A DNA stretch of 64,000 bases from Pseudomonadota bacterium (GTDB taxonomy: Bacteria > Pseudomonadota > Gammaproteobacteria > Steroidobacterales > MnTg04), in contig JACZVC010000015.1 of the NCBI GenBank assembly GCA_022572885.1, forward strand, positions 1 to 64,000. The letters are read 5' to 3'. The notes below the pieces were generated by a model. The model was not told the origin of the DNA, searched no databases, and saw only the letters and a list, made by a program, of their open reading frames with translations. Of this stretch, positions 41,792 to 45,760 are shown one piece after another. Within the stretch, counting starts at the first letter, position 1. Each line of letters begins with the position of its first letter. A program made the translations under genes and the position numbers.

Positions 41792-42625
41792 TCAGCCGGG
41801 CGCCTGGTATGCCGGGCATTGTACGCTGACCGCGGGCCCGGACCGGTCCATGCGCACGGCACTGAGCTGCCCGCCCCAGACACAGCCGCTGTCCAGGCAC
41901 TGCACGCCGTCTTCTTCGGCCAGGCCCAGCGTCGACCAATGGCCGAATACGATGCGCGACCCCCGGCTGGCCCTGCTCGGTACGCGGAACCAGGGCAATA
42001 TCGATTCGGGCAGGCCCGCCGGCGATTCCTTGCGTGCCAGCAGCAAATGACCCTGCCGGTCACAGTAACGCAGCCGGGTCAGGCAATTGACGATGAACCG
42101 GATCCGCTCGTGGCCGGCCAGCCCAGGATCCCAGCGGTCGGGCAGGTCACCGTACATGTTGCGGAAGAATTCCCGGTAGTCCGGTCCGCGCACTACGGCC
42201 TCTGCCTCCGCAGCGAGTTGCAGCGCCAGTTCGACGTTCCATTGCGGCGCCAGCCCCGCATGTATCAACAGTATGCCGTTTTCGTGGTGAGCCAGCGGCC
42301 GGTGTCTGAGCCAGTGCAGGAGCGTCGCGGCATCGTCGGCATCCAGGATTTCCCGCAGACCGGGATCCATGGGCTTGCTATCCTGGTTCGGGACCGCACC
42401 ATCCGCCAGCGCCAGGAAATGCAGGTCGTGATTGCCCAGCACGCTGACCGCGGCGTCACCCAAAGAGCTGACGAAGCGCAGGCACTGCAGCGATTCCGGT
42501 CCGCGGCTGATCAGATCGCCGGTGAACCAGAGGTGGTCGGCGGCAGGGTCGAAGTCGATTCGCTCCAGCAGGCGGCACAGGTCTCGATAACAACCCTGCA
42601 AATCGCCGATGGCATAGATCGCCAT
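41792..42625 (-). CDS. apaH: Bis(5'-nucleosyl)-tetraphosphatase, symmetrical
   Basis: 277 aa metallophosphatase. It splits Ap4A to two ADP and removes Np4N caps from RNA. Motifs: GDLQGCYRDLCRLL, TGDLISRGPESL, VLGNHDLHFLAL and HAGLAPQWNV. Its length matches E. coli ApaH. apaG, the usual partner between rsmA and apaH, is absent here; uspA takes that place. Confidence 0.95.
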   Translation of the reverse strand: MAIYAIGDLQGCYRDLCRLLERIDFDPAADHLWFTGDLISRGPESLQCLRFVSSLGDAAVSVLGNHDLHFLALADGAVPNQDSKPMDPGLREILDADDAATLLHWLRHRPLAHHENGILLIHAGLAPQWNVELALQLAAEAEAVVRGPDYREFFRNMYGDLPDRWDPGLAGHERIRFIVNCLTRLRYCDRQGHLLLARKESPAGLPESILPWFRVPSRASRGSRIVFGHWSTLGLAEEDGVQCLDSGCVWGGQLSAVRMDRSGPAVSVQCPAYQAPG

Positions 42626-42655
42626 CAGCGCGGGTATCCAATGGTCAGGGGGCGG

Positions 42656-43099
42656 TTACGAATCTTTGTGACCCAGCCTGACCGCGAGTACGTCACAGGG
42701 CGCGGCATGCAGCATCGTGTCTTCGGTGAAGTTGATGATGATCGCCAGTCCATGGCGCTCGCGGCAGCCGAGTACGATCAAGTCACATTCCTGGTCCCTG
42801 GCCACTCGGATGACCTCGGCCTTGATGTTGCCGACCTCGACATAGCGCGGCGTGTCACCCAGACCCAGGCTGGCGGCCAGCGCCTCGAACCGGGTTTTCG
42901 CGGATTTGACCAACTCGTCTTCGATCTGGACCGAGGGCAAAAGCGCCTCGCCCATGGGTTCGACCGGGACATACTCGACGACATGAACCAGGCAGAGATC
43001 CGCCTGGTAACGATTCGCCATGTCAACAGCGCGCTTGCCGATAATTTCACTATCGTCCGACAGATCAACCGCCAGCAGAATTTTCCTGTAATCGCTCAT
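42656..43099 (-). CDS. Universal stress protein, UspA family
   Basis: 147 aa Usp fold (YRKILLAVDLSDDSEIIGKRA, DLIVLGCRERHGLA). The ATP-binding pattern G-x2-G-x9-G-(S/T) is not intact: NFTED stands where G(S/T) is expected, as in the non-ATP-binding UspA branch. The chain ends VLAVRLGHKDS. It lies between apaH and the long inverted repeat behind rsmA on the same strand. Confidence 0.9.
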   Translation of the reverse strand: MSDYRKILLAVDLSDDSEIIGKRAVDMANRYQADLCLVHVVEYVPVEPMGEALLPSVQIEDELVKSAKTRFEALAASLGLGDTPRYVEVGNIKAEVIRVARDQECDLIVLGCRERHGLAIIINFTEDTMLHAAPCDVLAVRLGHKDS

Positions 43100-43190
43100 G
43101 TCTGCACCCCGTTTACCACCCGCTCACGGTCCCGTTATTGTGGTGACGCCATATTGATTATAGATGAATGGCTTTAACTTGAAATGACCT

Positions 43191-43400
43191 AGGAGTCTGC
43201 GCGGTAGAAATATCCGTAGCGAGAAAGTGTCACAGCGAGGACAGTTTTTCGATCTTTTGAGGCGCATAGTGGGACTACGCAACGAAAAAGATCGGAAAAA
43301 TGGACCGCTGTGGCGCTTTCGCACGACTGCAGGGACGCAGGAGGTAGAGCAACGCAGGAGCGGTTGCCGAGTAGGAATACTTTCTACCGCGCAGACTCCT
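43191..43400. repeat. 210-bp long inverted repeat (MITE-like) overlapping the 3' end of rsmA
   Basis: The outer 20 bases are a perfect inverted repeat: AGGAGTCTGCGCGGTAGAAA at 43191-43210 and its complement at 43381-43400. Inside, the arms go on pairing with gaps. 43216-43258 (with CACAGCG, TTTTTC, GATCTTTT) answers 43283-43325 (AAAAGATC, GAAAAA, CGCTGTG), around a small apical hairpin GCATAGT-GGG-ACTACGC. The right arm carries an extra stretch of about 45 bases (43327-43374) with its own hairpin. No reading frame of note lies inside. The right end contains the last codons (ESAR) and stop of rsmA. It could be a small non-autonomous mobile element or a transcript-ending hairpin. The rest of the 43100-43383 gap shows nothing else. 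Confidence 0.8.
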
Positions 43401-44184
43401 TGCTCAAAGCGGCCAGGGCCGCGAACTGGGCCGGTGACAGGTTTTCCGGACGCAGGCCCGGGTCGATACCCAGACCGCCGATCTGCTCCACGGAGACCAT
43501 CCCCCTGAGCGCGTTGCGCAAGGTTTTGCGGCGCGCGCTAAAAGCCTGGGTTACCAACTGCCGAAAGCGTTCGGGGTCGGGAACCTCGAATGGGCGTTGC
43601 GGCCAGGGGGTCAGTAAGCAAAACGCCGACTCGACCGCCGGTGGCGGCTTGAATGCACCGGCGCCGATAGTGAACAGTTTCTCGACTTTGACGGACGCCG
43701 CCAGCATCACGGTCAGCCTGCCATAGCGTTTGTTGCCGGGCGCGGCCGCCATCCGCTCGACGACCTCTTTCTGCAGCATGAAATACATCACGGAGACGCA
43801 GTCAATCTGCCCGAGCAGATGAAACAGCAGTGGCGTGGAAACATTGTAGGGCAGATTGCCGACGATTTTCAGCGCGCCGCCAGCCTGTTTGCGCTGGCGG
43901 AAATCGAACTTCAGGGCATCGGCCTCGTGGATCAGCAACTCGCCGTGACCGGCGGCTTTTTCCCGCAGCAACGCCACCAGGTCGCGATCCAGTTCCACCG
44001 CCTCCAGCGCGCCATGTTTTTGCAGCAGGGGCAGGGTGATCGCGCCCTGGCCCGGGCCGATTTCGATGATGGTGTCGCCCGGCCGCGGGTCGATCGCGCT
44101 GACGATGCGCTCGATGACAGCCGGGTCATGGAGAAAATGCTGACCGAAACGTTTGCGGGGGCGGTGGGTTATGGGGCGGCTCAT
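43384..44184 (-). CDS. rsmA: 16S rRNA (adenine1518/1519-N6)-dimethyltransferase
   Basis: 266 aa from the ATG at 44184 (MSRPITHRPRKRFGQHF); an ATG eight codons earlier (44208) is possible and neither has an ideal ribosome site. RsmA dimethylates two adenines at the 3' end of 16S rRNA. Motifs: KRFGQHFLHDPAVIERI, IIEIGPGQGAITLPLL (SAM site) and VGNLPYNVSTPLLFHLL (NLPY catalytic). The last residues, KESAR, and the stop lie inside the arm of the long inverted repeat, so the C-terminus may have been altered by that element. Confidence 0.94.
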   Translation of the reverse strand: MSRPITHRPRKRFGQHFLHDPAVIERIVSAIDPRPGDTIIEIGPGQGAITLPLLQKHGALEAVELDRDLVALLREKAAGHGELLIHEADALKFDFRQRKQAGGALKIVGNLPYNVSTPLLFHLLGQIDCVSVMYFMLQKEVVERMAAAPGNKRYGRLTVMLAASVKVEKLFTIGAGAFKPPPAVESAFCLLTPWPQRPFEVPDPERFRQLVTQAFSARRKTLRNALRGMVSVEQIGGLGIDPGLRPENLSPAQFAALAALSKESAR

Positions 44185-44431
44185 TTTTTTCTCAGTTCCC
44201 TTGGTCATTCCCCTTGATCAACGACATGGGAGTCGGGGGAAATTCATAATATCAGGCTGCCCGATTTTTGAAGTTTCTGATTCTCAAGGATGCCCGTTGA
44301 CGCGCAATCTGCAGCCCATTTACAAGCCCGGTTTCTGGGCAAATCAAGACGATTAAAGCTTTATTTTTCAGTAAGATAAGCCTATACTACTGGGATTAAG
44401 AACAGCATCGATTCAACCCCCGGAGCCCACC

Positions 44432-45760
44432 ATGTACTTGTCCCATGCCCAGCGACTACAGAACCAACGACACCGCAAAGAACTCGGTGCCGAGATCACC
44501 AAACTGTGCGGTTATCTGAATGCCGCCGAGTACCGGCTGCTGAAGCTGATCCGCGAATTCGATGAAGCCAATGGCTGGCATGAAGAAGGTTTGTATTCAT
44601 GCGCCCACTGGCTGAACTGGCAATGCGGCATCGGCATGAACGCAGCCCGAGAGAAGGTCCGCGTGGCGCATTGTCTGGCAGATTTACCAAAAATCAGCAC
44701 GGCTTTAGAAAAAGGCGAGATCAGCTATTCGAAGGTGCGGGCCATGACCCGGGTTGCGAATAGTGAGAACGAAGTTTTTCTGCTGATGATCGCCAGGCAC
44801 GGCACTGCCAGCCACATGGAAAGACTGATCGCCAAGACCCGCTGGGTCAAAAGACTGCAAGACGCCCAAAACGCCAACCAACAGCATGAACAGCGCAAAT
44901 TGACTTTTGCCTCCGATGAAGACGGTTCGTTAGTGATTCGTGCCCGATTGCCCGCCGAACAAGGCGCGCTGGTCCTCAAAGCCCTGGAAATGGCGATGGA
45001 CCGGGCCAAGGCCGAAAGACAAGAACCCGATGTTTCCGCGGAAACATTCAACAACCCCAATCCTAAATCAAGGGTCCCGTTCAGCGTCCACCGGGCCGAT
45101 GCCTTGATCGAGCTGGCCGAGACTTATTTGAGCCATGGCGCCAAGACCTCAACCACCGCGGAGCGTTACCAGGTCGTCATCCATGTTTCCGCGGAAACAC
45201 TCGAAGACGGCAGCGGCGAGATCTGCGAACTCGAACACGGCCCCAATGTTTCCGCGGAAACATCGAGACGCATCAGTTGTGACAGCAGTGTGGTCAAGCT
45301 TTTCGAGGACGAAACCGGCGAACCGATCAATATCGGCCGCAAATCCCGGGTTATTCCATCGGCCATGCGGCGAATATTAAAAGCCAGGGACAAAGGCTGC
45401 CGCTTTCCCGGTTGTACCCATCAATATTACATCGATCGCCACCACATCAAGCACTGGGCCGAGGGCGGTGAAACCAGTATCGACAACTTGGTGCAGCTAT
45501 GTCGTTATCACCATCGATTGGTACATGAAGGCGGTTTTGGCTGCGAGAAGACCGCCGATGGCCGCATTGTTTTCAAAAACAAAGATGGCAATGTCATCCG
45601 CCGTGCCGAATATTACCCCCCGATCCCGCCAAAAACCGACGCGGCGGACTTGCTGAGCCATGAAATCCCCGGGATCGACATCGACTCCAAAACCTGCGTG
45701 ACCCGGTGGGAAGGCGAGAAGATGGATTACAGTGTGGCGGTCGAGGCGTTGTTGGGGTAG
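44432..45760 (+). CDS. DUF222 / HNH endonuclease (13E12-repeat family)
   Basis: 442 aa. Residues about 20-300 are the DUF222 region (LNWQCGIGMNAAREKVRVA, ISYSKVRAMTRVA). The C-terminus is an HNH nuclease (CRFPGCTHQYYIDRHHIKHW, about 323-345, and LCRYHHRLVHEGGF). Such genes are often multicopy in marine gammaproteobacteria and actinobacteria; their function is unknown and a mobile or selfish character is suspected. It stands in opposite orientation between pdxA and rsmA, breaking an operon that is normally continuous. TATACT at 44383 is a possible -10, and CCCCGGAG precedes the ATG. Three identical 16-bp palindromes lie in its coding sequence. Confidence 0.92.
   Translation: MYLSHAQRLQNQRHRKELGAEITKLCGYLNAAEYRLLKLIREFDEANGWHEEGLYSCAHWLNWQCGIGMNAAREKVRVAHCLADLPKISTALEKGEISYSKVRAMTRVANSENEVFLLMIARHGTASHMERLIAKTRWVKRLQDAQNANQQHEQRKLTFASDEDGSLVIRARLPAEQGALVLKALEMAMDRAKAERQEPDVSAETFNNPNPKSRVPFSVHRADALIELAETYLSHGAKTSTTAERYQVVIHVSAETLEDGSGEICELEHGPNVSAETSRRISCDSSVVKLFEDETGEPINIGRKSRVIPSAMRRILKARDKGCRFPGCTHQYYIDRHHIKHWAEGGETSIDNLVQLCRYHHRLVHEGGFGCEKTADGRIVFKNKDGNVIRRAEYYPPIPPKTDAADLLSHEIPGIDIDSKTCVTRWEGEKMDYSVAVEALLG
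45031..45262. repeat. Three in-frame copies of palindrome TGTTTCCGCGGAAACA inside the HNH gene
   Basis: Identical 16-bp perfect palindromes lie at 45031-45046, 45184-45199 and 45247-45262. The first and third extend to 18 bp with A and T flanks. Spacings are 153 and 63 bases, both multiples of three, so each is read in the same frame and gives VSAET (DVSAETF, HVSAETL, NVSAETS). The third sits where DUF222 proteins normally have a similar VSAET-like motif, so the other two may be copies of it. Confidence 0.9.

Follow-up and report, generated by a model that had tools for sequence, protein, structure and literature searches.

The 3' end of rsmA in the window (the whole 64,000-nucleotide stretch analysed) carries a palindromic mobile element that has supplied the last codons of the gene. 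We read it as a non-autonomous palindromic MITE that inserts at CTAG-like targets with a 4-bp duplication and whose ends are most likely recognised in trans by a DDE transposase of the IS1182 family; at rsmA the stop codon would have been rebuilt on insertion and then lost. We put the probability of this reading at roughly 0.87.

Positions 43191-43400 form a near-complete palindrome. An inverted-repeat search gives arms at 43185-43210 and 43381-43406, with perfect 20-bp ends to the palindrome (43191-43210 and 43381-43400) and a second, inner inverted pair around 43242-43302. Folding of the 210 bases yields -110 kcal/mol, whereas shuffled sequences average -62.3 (sd 4.1; z -11.6), and none of 200 shuffles folds as well. 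Hence the palindrome described in the first-pass annotation, with perfect ends and arms pairing almost throughout, is real, however its limits needed correction. The outermost AG and CT come from the CTAG target duplication, leaving a mobile unit of 206 bp rather than 210 bp, and the insertion in one arm, put at about 45 bases, is present with an exact length of 47 bp (Table 1). On the + strand the borders read CTAG followed by GAGTCTGCGCGGTAGAAA at the left and TTTCTACCGCGCAGACTC followed by CTTG at the right.

Table 1. Features at the rsmA-uspA junction (window coordinates).
Feature	Position	Strand	Remarks
Palindromic MITE, terminal repeat to terminal repeat	43193..43398	+	159-bp palindrome plus 47-bp nested repeat
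Left terminal inverted repeat GAGTCTGCGCGGTAGAAA, 18 bp	43193..43210	+	inverted-repeat search
Right terminal inverted repeat	43381..43398	-	rsmA strand: GAG TCT GCG CGG TAG = E S A R stop
Target-site duplication, left copy, CTAG	43189..43192	.	
Target-site duplication, right copy, CTTG (rsmA strand CAAG)	43399..43402	.	
Conserved subterminal superfamily motif CGTAGCGAG	43215..43223	+	
Conserved hairpin apex TTTTGAGGCGCATAGTGGGACTACGCAACGA	43255..43285	+	
Nested 47-bp two-hairpin repeat	43324..43370	+	splits motif CGCA^GTAG (43320-43323 / 43371-43374)
rsmA	43384..44208	-	PF00398; last five codons K-E-S-A-R plus stop from mutated target duplication and terminal repeat
uspA	42656..43099	-	next gene downstream of element

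The features expected of a MITE are present, namely a length of 206 bp, terminal inverted repeats, the lack of a transposase open reading frame among the listed surrounding frames, a 4-bp target duplication, and dispersal, with copies elsewhere and element-free sites in relatives. The duplication is exact CTAG at many copies of the family; at rsmA it is CTAG/CTTG, and this single difference counts against the proposed history. An Rfam search of the element returned nothing above the gathering threshold, only sub-threshold miRNA matches.

The window genome (G000, a 2.76 Mb draft) holds a second copy, free of the insert, at C17:235-397, as well as end-like sequences at C3 and C13. Copies are found in all four congeners (G001-G004), with 4 to 14 BLAST matches per genome; all the genus genomes examined are drafts. 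The rsmA-uspA junction is intact and element-free in three of them, reading TTGAG ATAG GTCA in G003 and G004 and TTGGCTTAAGTC in G001, and in G002 the site holds an unrelated 162-bp repeat, R2. Two further insertions in the genus, L011 (CTAG..CTAG) and L015, have element-free sites in relatives, and in one element-free and filled pair G000 reads ACAGG CCAG CCCG where G001 reads ACAGG CTAG-element-CTAG CCCG. The non-autonomous palindromic mobile element envisaged in the first-pass annotation is supported by the C17 copy, the congener copies and the element-free junctions. Given the dispersed copies and the junctions without it, the hairpin is neither restricted to a single locus nor conserved in position. 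A local bidirectional terminator, or a structured 3'-end RNA native to the rsmA-uspA junction, would explain a strong hairpin directly after the coding sequence, but is highly improbable, since three congener junctions lack the element and many genera carry homologous copies at loci unrelated to this one. Furthermore, no terminator-like stem with a T-run was found, and the elements that start at gene stops are split evenly between co-directional (12) and opposed (12) orientations.

RsmA ends in ...ALSKESAR-stop. As the first-pass annotation had it, ESAR and the TAG stop lie in the right terminal repeat; the Lys codon AAG before them (43399-43401) can now be assigned to the mutated duplicated target. 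RsmA in all four congeners stops exactly at the codon that is AAG in the window, so the ancestral rsmA stop was most likely the TAG of a CTAG. We propose that the element integrated at a CTAG holding this stop, the simplest ancestor being ..TTG AGC TAG GTC.., although the nearest element-free congeners have ATAG and not CTAG at the target, which counts against such a history. The 4-bp duplication would have restored AGC TAG on the rsmA side of the insert, leaving RsmA unchanged at first. The stop would have been abolished at a later stage, when the copy next to the gene underwent a T-to-A change (CTAG to CAAG; TAG to AAG), giving AGC AAG GAG TCT GCG CGG TAG (S K E S A R stop) and adding five codons before the in-frame TAG that lies in the terminal repeat. 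As judged from the sequences compared, we infer that insertion preceded the stop-loss substitution, and that most likely insertion alone would have kept RsmA intact and the later substitution altered it. In this way a point mutation following insertion can extend a core protein with codons taken from a transposon. In G004 a 39-bp relative consisting only of terminal repeats (L033) provides another frame with a similar ending, K-E-S-A-P-stop, so such an extension may have happened more than once. The rsmA mRNA would also carry a hairpin of about 200 nt, which could plausibly block the transcript end or serve as a target for RNase III.

The position of some MITEs at gene ends may be explained by the target itself: the TAG of a CTAG can be a stop codon, and the 4-bp duplication then rebuilds it. 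At the ends of 94 superfamily palindromes (among the matches listed), CTAG coincides with the stop of a frame of at least 100 codons in 24 of 111 cases, compared with 63 of 552 other CTAGs of the same contigs (Fisher p 0.0055), about twice as often, in a test that is approximate owing to shared descent of copies and open-frame noise. Alternatively, an IS1182-type MITE could have taken the place of an inverted repeat already present, in the way that the IS1182-family element IS1272 replaces stem-loops without a target duplication (PMC5678879). The flanks of one copy (G003:C82, L015) are palindromic, GTCAGCC..GGCTGAC, and several copies lie inside another repeat, R2, both of which favour replacement; at rsmA, however, the congener sequence GAGATAGGTC is not palindromic and no flanking sequence was lost, and direct 4-bp duplications of CTAG or CTTG are common in the family. 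We therefore regard replacement as improbable and simple insertion with a 4-bp duplication as the preferred mode.

The first-pass annotation noted no transposase nearby and took the element to be non-autonomous. The neighbouring frames listed indeed contain no transposase, and a likely partner family can now be added. Movement of the element would be by an IS1182-type transposase, the putative partner being an IS1182 with GAGTYTGCGCGGTAG ends. Complete CTAG-bounded IS1182 elements with similar ends occur in Endozoicomonas (L172, L189), Pseudomonas aestuarii (L174), a gammaproteobacterial MAG (L175) and G022 (L049), with NF033551 matches of 371 bits in L174 and 332 bits in L049. The P. aestuarii IS has CTAGCAGCCTGTCGGACTTGA ends, and the same 21 nt open a palindrome found in that genome. 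G225, a genome of the same order (family f7), has a complete 1520-bp IS1182 with CTAG flanks at C40, encoding a 441 aa transposase (NF033551 339 bits, DUF772, DDE_Tnp_1). Its ends, GAGTTTGCGCGGTAGGAA and GAGTCCGCGCTGTAGAAG, are identical to those of the window element at 15 of 17 bases; five other IS1182 elements show 6-10 of 17. At least six matching IS ends are present in G225, one of them belonging to the complete C40 element. An IS1182/DUF772 transposase gave no match in G000 or its four congeners, all of them drafts from which the partner may have been lost or left unassembled, so the partner is deduced from another genome, and the end-matching IS of G225 lies in another family of the order than the window genome. 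These points count against the reading, as does the finding that the palindrome interior matches nothing in the terminal regions read from IS1182 elements. The G225 IS1182 and the 159-bp palindrome provide a concrete pair for testing.

The dispersed palindrome, and a nested repeat with GTAG and two small hairpins, also recall REP/BIME/REPIN-type repeats spread by a RAYT (Y1 HUH) transposase. That origin is extremely improbable for a 159-bp unit bounded by terminal inverted repeats, with a 4-bp duplication and ends matching those of DDE IS1182 elements.

MITEs of the IS1182 type are a known kind, as established by the Methanosarcina elements (PMC3852290) and by the targeting of inverted repeats by IS1272 (PMC5678879). 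In Methanosarcina acetivorans, IS1182-family MITEs with ISMac2 as partner include one of 160 bp (14 copies, IR 26, DR 4) and one of 169 bp (7 copies) (PMC3852290). Compared by description, they resemble the rsmA element in size, 4-bp duplication, IS1182-type ends and in sharing only the ends with their IS, however they are archaeal, whereas the superfamily of the rsmA element is gammaproteobacterial, and its hairpin is conserved and covaries along its whole length. IS1272 of Staphylococcus, which targets inverted repeats (PMC5678879), shares the transposase family and the association with inverted repeats, but differs in replacing stem-loops without duplication where the rsmA element family has CTAG duplications. 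Rickettsia palindromic elements (RPE), palindromes of about 150 bp, can supply codons to host genes (PMC10969869); they lie inside reading frames, whereas the rsmA element hits the stop codon and adds terminal codons only. ERIC and Correia elements, palindromic intergenic MITEs, can become part of mRNA 3' ends and serve as targets for RNases (PMC10969869). They are different elements in other hosts, and their likeness to the rsmA element is functional rather than drawn from sequence.

A single hairpin-apex pattern scan found at least 119 matching stretches, mostly in Gammaproteobacteria (Marinobacter, Pseudomonas, Sedimenticola, Thiorhodococcus, Endozoicomonas, Pseudomaricurvus and Nitrincola), plus Nitrosomonas and a few MAGs. 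Among the matches listed, 82 of 94 complete copies from other genera are 155-166 bp long, with most copies at 159-164 bp, 38 of the 94 complete palindromes have CTAG on both sides, and three have the direct, non-palindromic duplication CTTG..CTTG. Across 26 diverse copies, 94.1% of the cells in 60 pairs are standard pairs, and compensatory changes on both sides occur in 41 of the 60, compared with 29.1 on average after shuffling and no more than 25 pairs when slid. Conservation of the apex is partly built into the scan pattern, so we place the argument on the stems and on CGTAGCGAG and CGCAGTAG, both conserved outside the pattern; apex conservation was also compared with incidental terminal-inverted-repeat pairs of the same loci, which are few. 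The superfamily thus provides a natural experiment in hairpin upkeep while sequence changes. Its terminal repeats vary (GAGYCTGTCGGRYTTRGG, GAGGCTGTCCGAGAATAG and GAAGCTGTTCATGATCTT, with GAGTCTGCGCGGTAGAAA at the rsmA element). An exact-pattern search of 396 genomes of the order finds ends of the GAGTCTGCGCGGTAGAAA type in 17, some possibly by chance; they include 159-bp copies in family f7. Mini elements of 38-39 bp consisting of the two terminal repeats alone (L215, L225, L207, L265, L033) were also seen in several genomes, and these suggest that the terminal repeats are enough for movement.

As a test for constraint on an RNA strand, G-U and A-C cells were counted over pairs supported on both strands (38 vs 27), with no clear asymmetry. 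In 93 of 94 copies (L050-L168, among the matches listed) the + strand, reading TTTTGAGGCG, forms the more stable fold of the two strands (mean -92 vs -76 kcal/mol), a bias that is not independent evidence since the copies share ancestry. A speculative and rather doubtful extension is that the interior is an old constrained hairpin module, carried across Gammaproteobacteria by different IS1182 transposases and adapting only its ends, with the structure (possibly as RNA of one strand) needed for spread or host tolerance; the element would then be a structured-RNA/DNA parasite and not a decayed IS. In plasmid searches the sole matches were to the nested insert, in Pseudoalteromonas chromids, and to one cousin, carried by Pseudomonas sp. 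MPC6. Searches of the open literature for the exact terminal-repeat, apex and insert strings found nothing relevant, and we found no description there of the superfamily, its conserved interior or the link to stop codons.

The 47-bp segment is a second dispersed repeat comprising two hairpins. The first stem varies in sequence from copy to copy but stays paired (CTGCA/TGCAG, GAGTCCA/TGGACTC, CTATCA/TGATAG). By BLAST it is free-standing in Pseudoalteromonas and f14 genomes, and it lies inside palindromes exactly at CGCA^GTAG in this genus, in Sedimenticola (L055) and in G339. This shared position may reflect either a site preference or old common descent. Besides the window, the nested repeat was noted at L055, L219, L223, L037 and L013, and related hairpin inserts occur at the palindrome apex in G243 and G339.

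In the window, rsmA is followed by uspA and apaH (41792-43386). An ApaG-like frame follows rsmA in three genomes of the same order (G005, G008, G022), and hence the gene after rsmA differs in the window genus. A full sigma-70 consensus was not found between the element and uspA; a TATAAT at 43162-43157 is kept in congeners. Between rsmA and pdxA, the opposite strand carries a DUF222/HNH endonuclease-type gene (44432-45760, +). R2, the second palindromic repeat (162 bp), has ends ACCCGCATATTCYACCAAGGATCGCGG; its copy at the G002 rsmA-uspA junction is L042, and it is interrupted by the MITE at four other loci (L002, L016, L017 and L022).
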